DNA of 64,000 nt from Rhodohalobacter sulfatireducens (GCF_022012475.1 NZ_JAKLWS010000003.1:62001-126000), one strand, 5' to 3'. Positions 37,485-46,018 are shown, counted from the first letter of the stretch. Program-made: numbers and translations. Notes: generated from the letters alone by a model not told the origin.

Positions 37485-38030
37485 ATGAGAAGAAAGAGAA
37501 GAAGACGAAAGGAACTGTTTTCTGTTGAACTGAGGATTGCCGGCGCAGTACCACTTTTTATTCATCAAATTATGCGTAAAAAAATAGTGGACGGCCTGCA
37601 ATGGTGCTGCGATAAGCGAGGGCTACGAATTTATGAATATTCAGTATTGCCCGACAGAATTCTTATGATTGCCAACACAGCATGGGGCTCATTGCCTGAT
37701 GTTATCGAATCATTGAAAGGGTTTTCTTCGAAAGCTGTAATGCTAATGTTGAGAAACGGCCGATCTAATCTTTACACATCCTGGATGTTATCCGTGTTCC
37801 AGGAATTTGGTCCGCGGAATAAGCCAGAAGGAATTCACATTTGGGAAGAAGAGACACAGCTGCGTTCGGTTTATACGCAGGATCAGATTGATGAAGCGGC
37901 ACTATCAATCCTGAATCAATCTGTTAAATCGGGATTCGTTGAAAAGCCGGAACACTATTTGAATTGCAGTGCTCATCCCCAAAATCCTCTGCAGGATTGG
38001 ATTGTTGTGGCCACGGATCCCTGGAGTTGA
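37485..38030 (+). CDS. Catalytically degenerate Y1 transposase-like protein
   Basis: 181 residues, open and undisrupted. Its layout follows Bacteroidota REP-associated transposases: PLFIHQIMRKKIVDGLQW helix, RIYEYSVLPDRILMIANTA (relatives: IMPNHIHLI, the HUH motif), LPDVIESLKGFSSKAVM, WEEETQLRS (relatives: WQQ...HP.EL), and IDEAALSILNQSVKSGFVEKPEHYLNCSA (relatives: DYIHNNPVEAGFV...YSSA). So both the metal-binding histidines and the catalytic tyrosine are replaced, while the flanking scaffold is kept. The N-terminus is very basic (MRRKRRRRK). This suggests a domesticated DNA-binding protein (inference). Confidence 0.72.
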   Translation: MRRKRRRRKELFSVELRIAGAVPLFIHQIMRKKIVDGLQWCCDKRGLRIYEYSVLPDRILMIANTAWGSLPDVIESLKGFSSKAVMLMLRNGRSNLYTSWMLSVFQEFGPRNKPEGIHIWEEETQLRSVYTQDQIDEAALSILNQSVKSGFVEKPEHYLNCSAHPQNPLQDWIVVATDPWS

Positions 38031-39823: not shown

Positions 39824-40531
39824 ATGATAAGCGCAGAGACAAAAAATTTAATGGCCAAAGCTTTTCCTAAGTTTCGGGAAATGAAATGGAGGATTGAAGT
39901 CCTTGGGAAGCCCAAGGTTTTTTGTATCGGGAGAAATAAAACGGGCACTACATCTGTTAAAAGGGCATTTCAAGATTTAGGGTACAGGGTGGGTAAAGAA
40001 GAAATGGCGTATAAATACCTGCATGCTTATGCAAAAAGAGATTTTAAACCGATTAAAAGGTTTTGTAAAACCGCCCAGGTTTTCGAAGATATCCCATTTA
40101 GTCTGCCTTATACCTATCAGGCAATGGATGATGCCTATCTCGGGAGTAAATTTATACTGACCATTCGGGATAGTGCAGATCAGTGGGTAAAATCATTACT
40201 CAACCACCATAAAAGAAGATTTGGAAATAATGGACAGTTACCATCCAAAGATCAGTTGAAAAAGCTTTATAAAATCCCGGGTTTGAATAGGTTGGATTTT
40301 GAGAAAATTAAGTACGATACGACTGAGAATGATCTCTATGATTCAGAATTTTTGAAAGAAACTTATCATCGTCACAATGATGAAATTCTAAATTATTTCA
40401 GGCACAGAAAGAACGATTTACTTGTAATAAATCTATCTGAACCTGACTCATATCAAAGGTTTTGCGATTTTCTTGGTGAAATCCCTTTGTATAAAGAATT
40501 TCCCCACCTTAACAGATCACAAGACCTCTAG
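39824..40531 (+). CDS. Sulfotransferase family protein
   Basis: 235 residues. The P-loop GRNKTGTTSVKRAF (about 44-57) is the 5'-phosphosulfate-binding loop of sulfotransferases; the later FILTIRDSADQWVKSLLNH holds the 3'-phosphate-binding Arg and Ser. The C-terminal LVINLSEPDSYQRFCDFLG is also typical. No signal peptide. It is distinct from the other sulfotransferase at 2881 in P-loop wording and is preceded by a 240-base intergenic stretch with nothing recognisable. Acceptor unknown. Confidence 0.85.
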   Translation: MISAETKNLMAKAFPKFREMKWRIEVLGKPKVFCIGRNKTGTTSVKRAFQDLGYRVGKEEMAYKYLHAYAKRDFKPIKRFCKTAQVFEDIPFSLPYTYQAMDDAYLGSKFILTIRDSADQWVKSLLNHHKRRFGNNGQLPSKDQLKKLYKIPGLNRLDFEKIKYDTTENDLYDSEFLKETYHRHNDEILNYFRHRKNDLLVINLSEPDSYQRFCDFLGEIPLYKEFPHLNRSQDL

Positions 40532-40606
40532 ATTTTTTGTCTTTTTTCACTCCATGGTCCCTTTGAAATGAGTCACTTCTCAACTCATTATTATCTTAGA
40601 ATCCTC

Positions 40607-41326
40607 TCAAGTGTATTTTTTATTCAATTGCTGAAAAGATTGGACCCATTGAACACAGGCATTTTTCCATGCTTCAGTATTGATAAAGAAAAGGTTTTGA
40701 TTGATTTCCAGCTCAATTCCCAAGTATAAGTTCTCATTGAAGGTTTTCCTCAAATAGGTAGTAAATCCGTCAGATGCACCTTTATAGGGTTGATTCATCC
40801 GAATTCGCAACTCCGTATCTATTTGTTCCAGGAATGATTTCCAGTTAAGGCAAAGGTTTTTCTCACGAGTTCTTTTCGGATCATACAGCAATCCAATCTC
40901 AAAATCCCGGGTTTTCTTATTGAGTACAGGTGTAAATGTGTGAATACTGATATGAATAGTGGGAACACTTCTTAATGTGTTCTCATTGATAATTTCCGTC
41001 ACCCTCTTTCGGTATGGAAGATAGAAATTGTTGATGATCTCTTGCTTTTCTTCTGTTGAAAGGCCTCTTGTGAATTCTGAGAATAGCTTTGGGTGGCCAA
41101 GTGATCGGTTTGGTTCAATTAAAAGGCGTGTATATGGATAAGAAATGAGCTTAACTTTTGTTTTCACGGCAAACAGTTCAGCCAGCTCAAATGCTCCGGG
41201 ATCCCAGCCACGATGAGATTCTAAAACTTCATTGGCATTCCCAAAAAGGTATTCATACTCTATCGGAATCTTATTGCCGGCATGCTCACATGTAAGAATC
41301 CATTCAGGGGATGTAAGGCGTTCCAT
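40607..41326 (-). CDS. N-formylglutamate amidohydrolase-like zinc hydrolase
   Basis: 239 residues. Zinc and substrate positions typical of the family are seen: ILTCEHAGNKIP near the start, LESHRGWDPGAFELAE, YPYTRLLIEPNRSLGHPKLF, and THISIHTFTPVL; late motif LGIELEINQNLF. The classical enzyme releases formate from N-formylglutamate in histidine degradation, but here the gene overlaps the GCS2-type ligase by 23 bases and is the last gene of the amidoligase operon, so it more likely hydrolyses an amide in that system (inference). The isolated hutH at 5911 is too far away to argue for the classical role. Confidence 0.85.
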   Translation of the reverse strand: MERLTSPEWILTCEHAGNKIPIEYEYLFGNANEVLESHRGWDPGAFELAELFAVKTKVKLISYPYTRLLIEPNRSLGHPKLFSEFTRGLSTEEKQEIINNFYLPYRKRVTEIINENTLRSVPTIHISIHTFTPVLNKKTRDFEIGLLYDPKRTREKNLCLNWKSFLEQIDTELRIRMNQPYKGASDGFTTYLRKTFNENLYLGIELEINQNLFFINTEAWKNACVQWVQSFQQLNKKYT

Positions 41327-42548
41327 TTCTCAAACAGTCACAGAGGTTTTCGTAAACTTCAAATAGATCTTCATGATCATAATTATTGGGTAGAGTATTC
41401 AAAATTCGTCTTGCAAGCGGGCCTTCGTTGAAGATCATTTTAAGGTGATCAATAGCACCATCGGAAAATGAGTAATCTGATTTCAGAGACTCGAAAATAT
41501 GAATACAGAGCTCATTTGCTGAAATTTTTTCATTATTCAATCCGAAAAGCGACAAATATTGAGAATTGGAAATCATAGCCTGTTCTCCATCTCTGACAAC
41601 CGCCATTAGAATATCATATAATGAGTTTTCCGACCATTTTTTTTGATCGTCAAGTGATGTCCATATTTCATCAACCATTGCCTTTGTGAGGTTTATAATC
41701 CATTCAAGAATAGCAAGGTCGGCTGCTGGATTTTCCTGGATGTCGATTACCCGAATTTCAATTGTTTCCCGATCCCAACGAGACATTGCTCCACGCGAAT
41801 TCAGCCATTCATCCTGCAGGATTCCATCGGAATCAAACGGAGAGATATCCTCGTACATCCGGTCAAAAATTTCTTTCTGATAATCTTCTTGAGTGAAGAC
41901 CGCCTCCGGAACAATCAGCCCGGTTACCGAGGGAATTCGTTTGGAGTTTGTACGATACATTTCCATTCGAAAATCCAGGAACGGTTTGATTTCGCCATCG
42001 GCAATGGGAGAGCTAGCGGCGAGAGCCGGAATTAACGGCAAAACGAGTCGAACGGCGGCATGAAGTTTTTCAAAATCTTCATCACCGTGAAACGGGAGGT
42101 TCAGATGAGTACTCTGCAAATTCGCCCATCCATGACCGCGGCAATCAAAAATGCGGTTATAGGCTTCGTAGACAGGATTAAATTCATGTGGCCAGAGTTT
42201 CACTTTGAACGGATCCATCCAGGGATGAATGGCACCCGGCATAAGCCGGGCATTAAATTCAGTCAGTATTTCTTCTATTCCGCTCACCTCTTTTTGAAAT
42301 GCATCAGAAGCTTCCTCAAGGCTTTCTGCAGGCCCGTTTGTTTTGATCTCGATGAGATGAAGCACCAGCTCATTACTCCAAGCCATGGACCCGCGATCGT
42401 ACTCACTGATAATTTCACCGGCGGCTTTTTTAAGAAGTTTATCAGAAATGGGAAGGGCACTTAACTCAGAATTACTGACAATGATATACTCCATCTCAAT
42501 TCCATAACCTTCGAAAAGATGAAGAGGACGTTTCTTTTGGATCTTCAT
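41304..42548 (-). CDS. GCS2-type carboxylate-amine ligase
   Basis: 414 residues of the glutamate-cysteine ligase family 2 fold (glutamine-synthetase-like). Acidic and basic active-site segments: LFEGYGIEMEYIIV, STHLNLPFHGDEDFEKLHAAVR, DFRMEMYRTNSKRIPSVTGL and RETIEIRVIDIQENPAADLAI. Family members make gamma-glutamyl or related amide bonds using ATP. It lies 2 bases after the ATP-grasp gene and overlaps the amidohydrolase-like gene by 23 bases, so these are tightly coupled. A role in ordinary glutathione synthesis is unlikely given the neighbours. Confidence 0.87.
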   Translation of the reverse strand: MKIQKKRPLHLFEGYGIEMEYIIVSNSELSALPISDKLLKKAAGEIISEYDRGSMAWSNELVLHLIEIKTNGPAESLEEASDAFQKEVSGIEEILTEFNARLMPGAIHPWMDPFKVKLWPHEFNPVYEAYNRIFDCRGHGWANLQSTHLNLPFHGDEDFEKLHAAVRLVLPLIPALAASSPIADGEIKPFLDFRMEMYRTNSKRIPSVTGLIVPEAVFTQEDYQKEIFDRMYEDISPFDSDGILQDEWLNSRGAMSRWDRETIEIRVIDIQENPAADLAILEWIINLTKAMVDEIWTSLDDQKKWSENSLYDILMAVVRDGEQAMISNSQYLSLFGLNNEKISANELCIHIFESLKSDYSFSDGAIDHLKMIFNEGPLARRILNTLPNNYDHEDLFEVYENLCDCLRNGTPYIP

Positions 42549-42550
42549 AA

Positions 42551-44011
42551 TCAGTTCCTTTTCTTCTTCAATTCAACCCGGCGCAGGAATTCATCCATTA
42601 TGGCTTGGTATAACTTATCTTTCAAAATTGCGTCCTCGCACCCTGAGTCGATGCTTGGGTTGTCGTTCACTTCAATTACATAAACTTTGCCGTTCACCTC
42701 TTTCACATCCACACCATATAGGCCGTTTCCAATCAAATTGGCTGCTTTGAGGGCATTTTTTACGACTTGTTCGGGCATCTCTTCAATTGCCAATGTATCC
42801 GCATTTCCGGAGTAGGTTTTTCCTCCTTCCGTACGCTCATAAATTTGCCAGTGTTTACGCGCCATATGATATCGACATCCGTAAAGAGGTTCGCCGTTCA
42901 GAATTCCAACCCGCCAGTCGAACGTTGTAGGAATAAATTTTTGGACGATCAGCAGATCTGATTTGTCGAACAGTTTTTTTGATTGCTCATCGAACTCGGC
43001 ATTGTCATTCACCTTTACCACTCCATGTGAAAACGAACTGTCGGGTTGTTTCAGAATGCATGGAAATCCCATTTTCTCAGGAACCAATTCGATGGTTTCC
43101 GGGCTGATAATGAGCGTTTGCGGTGCCGGTATTTGATGCTTTGTCAGCAGTTCAGCAAGATATACTTTATTGGTACACATCAGGATCGATTCCGGGTCGT
43201 CTATCACAACAAGGCCTTCAGCGGCGGCTTTTCGAGCCATTCGGTAAGTGTGGTGCATCACGCTGGTGGTTTCACGGATAAAGAGGGCATCAAATTCGTT
43301 GATTCGAGAATAATCATCTTTGGTGATCAGTTCAGTGCGGAAATCAATGGATTCGGCTGCACGGATGAAGCGCTGAATAGCTTTTTCATCAGACGGCGGT
43401 AGTTCTTCATTCGGGTTTACGAGAATAGCCAGGTCGTAGCGGGCGTCTTTTTTGGGAGTAACCGAGTATCTTTTCTTAAAAAACTCCTGCGCCATTTGTG
43501 TGACGAACGGTCTGTGTTCGTCGGGAACATCATTGGCGGCAATTGCCTGGATATTCTTTAGAATCCATTCCTGGTCTTTTTTAGCAAATTCGGCACGCAA
43601 AAAAGGGGCCTGAAACTGGTTAAACAGTTTTTGTGCCAGCCGATCATATCGCTTGGCCAGGTTTTTGCCGAAATAGATACTCAACGTAAACGTTTCGGCA
43701 TGAATTGGTTTTAGATTTTTTTGAATCAATTGATTCAGTTCATCCGAAACAATACGAATGATCGACTGCGACTTGATATCCTGGATAGCCAATACATTCG
43801 GGAAGGGTTTATGTCCGCGGGCGTTCGCCAAGAGTGAAACATAATAACCAATTGACTGATAGCGATAACTCCGGCAGAGATTATAGATCTTTAAATTTTT
43901 TCGGGTTGAAAATTCAGGTTCCGTGATGTACGATTTTGCGGCAATTACATCAACTCCGGGAATTTCCAGGGGCCAGTTTTTTGGGTTGTTTACAACAATA
44001 ATATGATCCAT
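42551..44011 (-). CDS. RimK-type ATP-grasp ligase with RLAN N-terminal domain
   Basis: 486 residues. The N-terminal about 190 residues fit the RLAN domain (RimK-like ATP-grasp N-terminal; DHIIVVNNPKNWPLEIPGVDVI, YYVSLLANARGHKPFPNVLAIQD). A second part with LAILVNPNEELPPSD leads into the ATP-grasp: NKVYLAELLTKHQIPAPQT, FPCILKQPDSSFSHGVVKV, DWRVGILNGEPLYGCRYHM and the metal-binding VYVIEVNDNPSIDSG. RimK enzymes join glutamate or similar amino acids to peptides. Central gene of a four-gene amidoligase operon, 12 bases after the C39-like gene and 2 before the GCS2-type gene. Confidence 0.92.
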   Translation of the reverse strand: MDHIIVVNNPKNWPLEIPGVDVIAAKSYITEPEFSTRKNLKIYNLCRSYRYQSIGYYVSLLANARGHKPFPNVLAIQDIKSQSIIRIVSDELNQLIQKNLKPIHAETFTLSIYFGKNLAKRYDRLAQKLFNQFQAPFLRAEFAKKDQEWILKNIQAIAANDVPDEHRPFVTQMAQEFFKKRYSVTPKKDARYDLAILVNPNEELPPSDEKAIQRFIRAAESIDFRTELITKDDYSRINEFDALFIRETTSVMHHTYRMARKAAAEGLVVIDDPESILMCTNKVYLAELLTKHQIPAPQTLIISPETIELVPEKMGFPCILKQPDSSFSHGVVKVNDNAEFDEQSKKLFDKSDLLIVQKFIPTTFDWRVGILNGEPLYGCRYHMARKHWQIYERTEGGKTYSGNADTLAIEEMPEQVVKNALKAANLIGNGLYGVDVKEVNGKVYVIEVNDNPSIDSGCEDAILKDKLYQAIMDEFLRRVELKKKRN

Positions 44012-44023
44012 GAGGGAGCTGTC

Positions 44024-44713
44024 TTAAGGAGTAATAATGATAAGATTCGCGTCGTATGTTACAATTCCAAGTAAAATGGCATTCATCACACGGTCAATAT
44101 TCATTTTATAGAGTTGTCCTTCCTTCAGTGGATTTTTTATGATTGGGTCAGCGATAAATACTTCTCTTGTCTTTGAATCATATCCGTGGAGAAGAACAAA
44201 ATGCCCGGAAGGTTCTCCGCGCAGATCGTCATAGTCCATATTTGGGCCAAACTCTCTTGCACTTTTGTAAAGATATGTTGCGCTGAGTCCAACCATTATG
44301 GGTTGTTCATTTTGGAGGTATTTTGTGATAACATTGGAACGTAGGTCTTTGAATTTGACCTTCCCACCCAGGTGCAGGAAATCAAGGTAAGCACTTGCAG
44401 CGGTTTGAAGTTTTGGGTCTTTTTTGAAGACCATCTGTTTTTGGAGTCTCTCGATCAAAAAGTCAGAATCTTTATCAAACCAAGTTGGATCAAATACCTG
44501 AAGATTGTAGGAATAGATTGTTGTATTGTAACCACGATTAAGTGCGTGAACGGCCAAGAGTGCGCCCAGTGTTCCTCCATCTTTAAGATGATGAACCTCA
44601 TTTATAATCGTGTTTAGTTCAATTGAGTCACCATAGAACTGGTACAGTGTATGCAAGCAGGTAGCCCCGCAGGTCGTTTCGTTCGGTTGTGGTTTTATAG
44701 GAATTGATAACAA
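44024..44713 (-). CDS. C39-like papain-fold peptidase
   Basis: 229 residues. The catalytic Cys is in NETTCGATCLHTLYQFYG (about residue 15), the His in SGHFVLLHGYDSKT and the Asp in EVFIADP, the triad order of C39-type cysteine peptidases. There is no ABC transporter domain, unlike bacteriocin exporters, and no signal peptide. The start is TTG with a reasonable GAGAGGA ribosome-binding site. It is the first gene of the amidoligase operon and probably cuts or transfers a peptide made or modified by its ligases (inference). Confidence 0.85.
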   Translation of the reverse strand: MLSIPIKPQPNETTCGATCLHTLYQFYGDSIELNTIINEVHHLKDGGTLGALLAVHALNRGYNTTIYSYNLQVFDPTWFDKDSDFLIERLQKQMVFKKDPKLQTAASAYLDFLHLGGKVKFKDLRSNVITKYLQNEQPIMVGLSATYLYKSAREFGPNMDYDDLRGEPSGHFVLLHGYDSKTREVFIADPIIKNPLKEGQLYKMNIDRVMNAILLGIVTYDANLIIITP

Positions 44714-44821
44714 TTTTTAAAGTCCTCTCTGATGTAACGGGAAAAGAGTTGAAATGAGTAACAAAAATAAGATGAAAAAACGAGATTTCATCTATATTCA
44801 GATATTATTTATTCAGATGGG

Positions 44822-46018
44822 CTATACAAACTCATTTTTACCTGCCTTCCAGCCCGACCAAAGTTTAATGAAAGCTACCAGGAAAAGGAAGAGAAGAGGA
44901 ACCGTCCAATTTTGGGTGAGGTCAAAAAAAGCACCAAACAGAACCGGGCCAACAGCTGCTATTGTATAACCAATGGACTGCGACATTCCCGAGAGTTCAT
45001 TTGCCGAATCTGAATCACGGCTTCGCAGTAAAATAAAGAATAGTGCTAGACCAAAACTTCCACCGAGGCAAAATCCGAGAATTGCCGACCAGATAGCTAC
45101 AAACAAAATAGATGACTGGAACACTAATCCAATAATACTCACCATCTCAAAAAATGCAATCCAGAAAACAAGAGTTTGTTGGTTTGTTTTTTTTGATGCC
45201 ATGGGAGGAATTGCAAACGTACCCAAAACGCCTACTCCGTGCATAATGGAAAGCATCCAGCCTGCATGCGAAGGTGTCATCCCGCGATCGATTAAAATTT
45301 CAGGTAACCAGGCAGTAAGAGTGTAAAATGTAAGAGACTGAAGGCCCACAAAAACTGCGATGTGCCATGCAAGTGCAGAGGTTCCCAAATCCCGCAGAGA
45401 GGAACGGAAAGACTTTCTCATGATGACGGGCATATTTACCTTCAATTGTGGGAGCCATGCAAAGAATGCCAGTGCAGATAATATTCCCCAGCTCGCCAAT
45501 GTCCATCGCCATCCTAAACCTGCACCTTCAGAAAGAGGTATGCTTACTCCGGATGCAATCGTAGCCCCCACGCCCAGCATGGATGAGTAAATACCCGTCA
45601 TTAAACCGGCTTTTTGAGGAAATTGTTTTTTTACGATTCCCGGCAGCAATACGTTTCCAAGTGCTATACCGATTCCCAATATCAGCGTTCCACCAAAAAG
45701 CGCCAGGTGAGCGGGGATGACTCTCAGAAAAATTCCAATTGTAAGAATAGACAACGCAAATGCCATGGTTCCCTCTGTTCCCATTTTTCGAGTGAACAGT
45801 GGTGTGAGAACTGAAAATATTCCAAAAGCCAAAACCGGCAGTGTCGTGAGTAGTCCGATCAGGCTGTTTGAGAGCCCGGTGCTCATCCTGATCTCAGTCA
45901 CCAAAGGACCAACCGCAGTTAATGAGGGCCTCAGGTTCAGAGAGATTAGAATTATTACAAGTATCAGTAAGTATTTCTTTTTTTGATCGGTAGACATTCG
46001 CCTGTATTTAATAAGCAT
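44822..46018 (-). CDS. MFS transporter, CynX/NimT-like
   Basis: 398 residues with about twelve membrane helices and the CynX/NimT-family opening ISLNLRPSLTAVGPLVTEI. Relatives move small anions or amino-acid-like compounds. It is on the same strand as, and 108 bases upstream of, the amidoligase operon, so it may export or import a product or precursor (inference). ATG 46018 is used; a second ATG at 45997 (MSTDQKKKYLL) is equally possible. Confidence 0.87.
   Translation of the reverse strand: MLIKYRRMSTDQKKKYLLILVIILISLNLRPSLTAVGPLVTEIRMSTGLSNSLIGLLTTLPVLAFGIFSVLTPLFTRKMGTEGTMAFALSILTIGIFLRVIPAHLALFGGTLILGIGIALGNVLLPGIVKKQFPQKAGLMTGIYSSMLGVGATIASGVSIPLSEGAGLGWRWTLASWGILSALAFFAWLPQLKVNMPVIMRKSFRSSLRDLGTSALAWHIAVFVGLQSLTFYTLTAWLPEILIDRGMTPSHAGWMLSIMHGVGVLGTFAIPPMASKKTNQQTLVFWIAFFEMVSIIGLVFQSSILFVAIWSAILGFCLGGSFGLALFFILLRSRDSDSANELSGMSQSIGYTIAAVGPVLFGAFFDLTQNWTVPLLFLFLVAFIKLWSGWKAGKNEFV

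Follow-up and report, generated by a model that had tools for sequence, protein, structure and literature searches.

A Four-Gene Locus in Rhodohalobacter sulfatireducens

What is made, or modified, by a gene cluster that combines two predicted amide-bond-forming ligases with two predicted hydrolases? This question was raised by four adjacent genes found in a 64,000-nucleotide stretch of the R. sulfatireducens genome, referred to as the window. The initial annotation of the locus was reproduced with respect to gene borders, order, strand, gaps, overlap, flanks and domain calls. In window coordinates, and in the direction of transcription, the genes are as follows:

44713..44024, minus strand: C39 gene, 229 aa, TTG start
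44011..42551, minus strand: RLAN-ATPgrasp gene, 486 aa
42548..41304, minus strand: GCS2 gene, 414 aa
41326..40607, minus strand: FGA gene, 239 aa

The C39 and RLAN-ATPgrasp genes are separated by 12 nt and the RLAN-ATPgrasp and GCS2 genes by 2 nt, while GCS2 and FGA overlap by 23 nt. As had been claimed, the active-site motifs are intact: the residues are present in the window and are invariant or nearly so across 33–39 homologues from many phyla. Since a hydrophobic N-terminal signal was absent from all four proteins, a cytoplasmic location is expected. NCBIfam provided an equivalog-level name for none of the four, and the C39 and FGA proteins had no NCBIfam match of any kind.

The cassette is flanked by 108 nt upstream and by 75 nt downstream of FGA. 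Two features were noted on its upstream side:

44714..44821, minus strand: upstream gap of 108 nt with an AT-rich hairpin-like stretch and a TAnnTTTG-like hexamer, both putative
44822..46018, minus strand: CynX/NimT-type MFS transporter gene, upstream of the cassette on the same strand and outside the conserved core

The transporter was rejected as a pathway member because it adjoins the cassette in close relatives only. In part of the genus (L071, L072, L085 and L088; loci and genomes are designated L and G), a HAD/PNK3P-type phosphatase gene lies between this transporter gene and the cassette on the same strand. Directly after FGA (window 40532-40606), an inverted repeat AATGAGT...ACTCATT without a T-run may represent a terminator or an operator. 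It is followed by a Sulfotransfer_4 gene on the plus strand (39824-40531), which is convergent with the cassette and whose adjacency is not conserved. Further away, at 37485-38030 on the plus strand, lies a REP-associated tyrosine transposase-like gene (NF047646, 8.6e-8, below the cut-off), which is found near the same position in four genus relatives (L069, L071, L072, L085).

Conservation of the Cassette across Phyla

RLAN genes were scanned for with one genome per species, which yielded at least 586 relatives. The best 80 of these at least 586 RLAN loci and 40 loci from relatives were then searched with profiles built for this analysis; one ORF (L051) was left out of the alignment. In the 68 loci with sufficient context, all four genes were present in 41 and C39-RLAN-GCS2 in 57; FGA was the sole missing gene in 16 loci and one or more of the others were missing in 11, fractions that overstate the operon form among RLAN genes, as the best 80 loci were selected by an alignment made largely of operon-type proteins. 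Gene order and strand were identical throughout the 68 loci, with median hit-to-hit gaps of 35, 39 and 24 nt, and the flanks were unrelated.

Four-gene loci occurred in at least 11 named phyla, including Pseudomonadota, Planctomycetota, Bacteroidota, Verrucomicrobiota, Balneolota, Spirochaetota, Thermodesulfobacteriota, Nitrospirota, Myxococcota, Ignavibacteriota and Acidobacteriota, the labels being taken from record titles, mostly of MAGs. Thus, the cassette is not a speciality of Balneolota and Bacteroidota, the groups named in the initial annotation. Beyond close relatives, no other neighbor gene was conserved beside the cassette in the 68 loci, and neither a carrier nor a transporter nor a precursor peptide gene was found conserved there. 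The earlier remark that the flanks hold no precursor peptide gene was borne out more widely, since no small ORF recurred across phyla in about 500–600 nt of flanking DNA. Mirror-tree distance correlations among the four families ranged from 0.45 to 0.82, which is consistent with inheritance as a block and equally expected from shared descent.

Co-Occurrence of the Core Genes in Relatives

Of 99 genomes of relatives that were searched, 65 are at least 90% complete. Non-fused RLAN, GCS2 and C39 occurred together in 28 of these 65 and were all three absent from the remaining 37, with no discordant genome; the relatives share ancestry, so that the 28 co-occurrences are not independent events. All genomes with discordant patterns were 62–86% complete. 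Within the window's own genus, some members carry the whole set and others lack it, which indicates that it was gained or lost as a block. Both the recurrence of one gene order in different phyla and the matching presence and absence of RLAN, GCS2 and C39 among relatives show that the arrangement is not due to chance. The initial annotation had made its case depend on the four genes being conserved together, and this was what was found, with the same order and strand across phyla and exact co-occurrence of the core in near-complete relatives.

Looser arrangements were also observed. GCS2 was not adjacent to RLAN but encoded elsewhere in the genome for L095, L097, L132 and L124, and the same was true of C39 for L124 and L141. 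At four further loci (L110, L114, L143, L166), RLAN was found in genomes from which GCS2 and C39 were absent; thus, the ligase can act with other partners, which counts against the pathway proposed below. On Pseudomonas and Azospirillum plasmid records RLAN stands alone, at least locally, and one record of Legionella adelaidensis has an RLAN-GCS2-FGA operon at its edge.

The RLAN-ATPgrasp Ligase

The ligase belongs to the RLAN-ATP-grasp proteins, with a Pfam match to PF14401 RLAN at 1e-50 (171.7 bits against a cut-off of 25) and RimK/ATP-grasp_3 matches above the cut-off. Two parts were distinguished:

43427..44011, minus strand: RLAN domain, aa 1 to about 195
42554..43444, minus strand: C-terminal ATP-grasp half with conserved ILKQP, DWRxG, HWQI and VIEVNDNP motifs

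The C-terminal half was nearest to RimK and LysX and also matched ArgX. The protein scored far below the NCBIfam cut-offs for RimK, LysX and MptN; for the RimK family of alpha-L-glutamate ligases (TIGR00768), it reached 78.5 bits against 143.4. The N...GG segment visible in RimK and LysX was not seen at the aligned place of the ATP-grasp half; therefore, neither the RimK/LysX substrate class nor glutamate specificity can be transferred to it.

The strongest-conserved motif of the family, NLCRSYxYQSxGYYVSLLAxARGH, lies in the RLAN domain and probably marks a binding site. When modeled alone (pLDDT 89.3), the RLAN domain aligned end to end with ArgX as the best match (Z 11.4, 171 of 196 residues, 3.9 Å), and all structural matches listed, including ArgX, RimK and LysX, belonged to the ATP-grasp superfamily (rmsd 3.9–5.4 Å). 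Going by the model, the RLAN domain likely resembles a shortened ATP-grasp enzyme, and the ligase would probably consist of two ATP-grasp copies, one degenerate and one active. Profile–profile comparison of the two halves gave only a short overlap of the two alignments and no similarity at the sequence level; going by the fold, the two halves may have arisen by internal duplication. The RLAN protein of Pseudomonas aeruginosa is presumably PA1345. In PMC12802237, PA1345 appears just as a hypothetical ATP-binding protein that has a CpxR-type site.

The GCS2 Ligase

The second ligase is a member of PF04107 (5e-21, 75.7 bits against a cut-off of 21 in Pfam). Its profile retrieved nothing from the PDB sequences at 1e-3. 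The structural model (pLDDT 94.2) showed the GCS/GS-like fold, with YbdK (1r8g) at Z 39.1 over 349 residues and 2.5 Å, and plant glutamate-cysteine ligase (2gwc) at Z 33.8; Dop and PafA followed at Z about 20, so the protein is nearer to YbdK. The motifs of YbdK aligned with those of the GCS2 protein. In spite of this common fold and the aligned motifs, identity to YbdK and the plant enzyme is only 14–15%, and the GCS2 protein has conserved motifs of its own, WSNELVLH and RGHGWxNLQSxHLN. It falls outside the YbdK family TIGR02050 (49.2 against 176.4) and outside the glutamate-cysteine ligase equivalog gshA_cyano (23.2 against 249). Only the modeled fold of GCS2 points to gamma-glutamyl chemistry in a first step.

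The C39-Type Hydrolase and the Accessory FGA Hydrolase

From its sequence, the product of 44024..44713 is predicted to be a C39-type papain-like cysteine hydrolase. It matched PF13529 Peptidase_C39_2 at 9e-13 (49.4 bits against a cut-off of 24 in Pfam), and the active-site positions Gln9, Cys15, His171 and Asp189 correspond to Gln, Cys, His and Asp residues that were invariant in 34 sequences. Among solved structures, weak profile matches to the peptidase domains of ComA and PCAT1 were obtained. The protein does not have the features of a C39 leader peptidase of ABC exporters, being a stand-alone protein of 229 aa with no conserved transporter or small ORF nearby. In one family-level relative (G041, L075:8280-8792), the C39 frame is kept; the first approximately 54 residues, including the catalytic Cys, and an internal stretch bearing the His are missing, and RLAN, GCS2 and FGA are intact. 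This truncated C39 may be a dead scaffold, or else the assembly is at fault.

FGA is a member of PF05013 FGase (8e-24, 85.5 bits against a cut-off of 28.9 in Pfam) with conserved motif residues. The nearest solved structure was 2ODF, the hypothetical protein Atu2144 (3e-39), with which the CEH, SHxxWDPG, HSFTP and NxPYxG motifs and the final acidic motif align. The HutG-like 2Q7S matched only at 3e-5, and since FGA is much closer to Atu2144, the name ‘N-formylglutamate amidohydrolase’ is to be read as a clan label. At least two near-complete genomes (G061 and G124) keep C39, RLAN and GCS2 and lack an FGA of the cassette type, and the similarly organized loci L112 and L120 differ by the presence of FGA. 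Thus, FGA is accessory. The four genes had initially been taken for a self-contained unit of two ligases and two hydrolases; the functional unit was upheld, but the second hydrolase is not an obligatory part of it.

GNAT Fusions and Other Architectures

A single GNAT-RLAN-ATPgrasp fusion protein was found at L066-L068, L082, L083, L089, L090, L063 and L064, as called from protein lengths at all of these loci and from domains at L063, L067 and L068. GCS2 and C39 of the cassette type were absent from all GNAT-fusion genomes searched, so the fused and the operon architectures are apparently mutually exclusive. This distribution, drawn from few lineages, suggests that GCS2 and GNAT supply equivalent acyl-capping steps. 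A third arrangement of the same parts was seen at L065:6068-8689, with split RLAN and ATP-grasp genes and a GNAT-DUF3335 protein, DUF3335 being itself C39-like. RLAN-ATPgrasp is the part common to all architectures; GCS2, C39 and FGA belong to one of them, which a GNAT-fused form replaces in other lineages. As a possible model for the GNAT variant, NAGGN synthetase, itself a GNAT-ATP-grasp fusion, was also weighed; its family was not among the NCBIfam matches of the window's ligase protein.

Proposed Pathway and Alternative Explanations

The four neighboring genes very probably form one pathway, which most likely makes and recycles a small glutamyl peptide. Spelled out in full, the cassette is tentatively read, with somewhat less than even confidence, as encoding a pathway located in the cytoplasm by which a small peptide, capped and probably gamma-glutamyl, is built and recycled. 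At the expense of ATP, the GCS2/YbdK-type enzyme would couple an amine or amino acid to glutamate, or to a related dicarboxylate, through the gamma-carboxylate, thereby setting the cap. RLAN-ATPgrasp would then activate the free carboxylate of the capped product and add a second amine or amino acid, with the RLAN domain, apparently a degenerate ATP-grasp copy, holding the substrate. The C39-type cysteine hydrolase may cleave or transfer that peptide bond in the cell, for trimming or turnover, and FGA, if present, may serve in salvage by hydrolyzing a by-product, either an N-acyl compound or an omega-amide. In the GNAT-RLAN-ATPgrasp lineages, acetylation would take the place of the gamma-glutamyl cap. 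Chemically, the simplest scheme would be to form two amide bonds in succession on a small substrate, the hydrolases serving to trim it or turn it over. As to the glutamyl product that had been proposed initially, the YbdK and plant glutamate-cysteine ligase fold of GCS2 speaks for it, while the low scores of the RimK-like ligase against RimK, LysX and MptN do not.

A broader reading, possible rather than probable, is that of a metabolite pathway spread over at least 11 phyla, in which a ligase made of two ATP-grasp copies in tandem, the first of them degenerate, is combined with interchangeable capping by GCS2 or GNAT, leading to an undescribed but widespread capped peptide. Such a peptide might be a stress metabolite, an osmolyte or a cofactor-like compound.

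Among the alternatives, modification of a protein is unlikely, but it draws on several observations. RLAN-ATPgrasp would add glutamate or a similar residue to a conserved cellular protein, with GCS2 as the chain initiator and C39 and FGA as erasers. RimK, the closest characterized relative of the catalytic half, acts on ribosomal protein S6, and the fold matches of the RLAN domain include RimK in complex with RpsF. RLAN is also strongly conserved across phyla, with a median identity of 55%, as would fit a conserved protein substrate. A precedent exists in P. fluorescens, where RimK and RimB form a writer/eraser pair (PMC12239564). However, RimK is not known to depend on a GCS2-type partner when it modifies S6, the ligase lies far below the RimK-family cut-off, and a target or carrier gene conserved with the cassette was not found. 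The protein tag put forward initially gained no positive support: among the genes next to the cassette, none for a carrier, a Pup-like protein or a precursor was seen to be conserved. A circularly permuted ATP-grasp tagging system was considered separately and rejected, since PF14403 is absent from the organism's own genome.

Scavenging of amines or amino acids, in which GCS2 would gamma-glutamylate an amine in the manner of the gamma-glutamyl amine pathways, RLAN-ATPgrasp would form a second amide and the hydrolases would release usable products, matches the inventory of two ligases and two hydrolases, but two ATP-consuming ligases are costly for catabolism and the cassette has no conserved companion gene for an oxidoreductase, an aminotransferase or uptake; this explanation appears quite improbable. 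In its favor, one spirochaete carries a Peptidase_C26 gene of the gamma-glutamyl hydrolase family (L132:3359-4165) upstream of its C39-RLAN genes and on their strand, which might hint at gamma-glutamyl chemistry. A glutathione-like thiol pathway, in which GCS2 would be the counterpart of gshA and the ATP-grasp protein that of gshB, while C39 would act as a transpeptidase of the phytochelatin-synthase type, is very improbable. The fold pair is that of glutathione synthesis, with GCS2 closest to YbdK and the plant enzyme, but scores for gshA and gshB were far below the cut-offs, placing the proteins outside glutathione biosynthesis, and the solved relatives of C39 by profile are C39 peptidases. 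Moreover, a thiol role is unlikely because BshC of bacillithiol synthesis, encoded in the genome (2.6e-106), already accounts for a thiol. To our knowledge, GCS2 enzymes are not usual in RiPP clusters, which counts against a graspetide-like RiPP with C39 as the leader peptidase, as do the stand-alone nature of C39, the absence of an ABC exporter and the lack of a small ORF conserved across phyla in the flanks that could be a graspetide precursor. ATP-grasp ligases and C39 peptidases do occur in RiPP clusters (graspetides are reviewed in PMC8939145), yet for this locus a RiPP is extremely improbable. Building and recycling of a small capped peptide is retained as the preferred explanation.

Comparison with Known Systems

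The cassette is a variant of the RimK-like amidoligase operons. Iyer et al. in 2009 are said to have named the RLAN-domain RimK-like ligases and to have catalogued RLAN and its operons, predicting by comparative genomics peptide ligases with papain-like peptidases and GNATs; the cassette family is probably among those already catalogued. In the open literature searched, no mention of RLAN, PF14401 or the gene combination and no experimental work on the cassette were found.

The RLAN-domain RimK-like ligases (PF14401) have the same domain pair as the cassette ligase. With RimK/RimABK, the alpha-L-glutamate ligase system of S6, the cassette shares the ATP-grasp catalytic half and the pairing of a ligase with a protease; it differs by the additional RLAN half and by GCS2, C39 and FGA in place of the retropepsin-like RimB of RimABK. 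RloABC of P. aeruginosa likewise combines an ATP-grasp protein and a protease in an operon, but its protease is of the secreted aspartic type and is joined by an inactive transglutaminase 7TM protein, and the cassette lacks both (PMC12239564). LysX and ArgX, which act with the LysW carrier, resemble the C-terminal ligase half and, going by the model, probably also the RLAN half in fold, whereas a conserved adjacent gene for a LysW-like carrier is missing from the cassette.

To these systems, the present analysis adds the exact co-occurrence of RLAN, GCS2 and C39, their co-inheritance as a block, the apparently exclusive variant with GNAT and the fold of RLAN, which is probably ATP-grasp-like. 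A fixed order over many phyla, block inheritance and enzymes of amide-bond chemistry point to a metabolite or modification that is common in bacteria and has apparently never been identified. Owing to the exchange of GCS2 and GNAT and to the exact pattern of presence and absence of the cassette in a single genus, this question can be put to a direct test between near neighbors.
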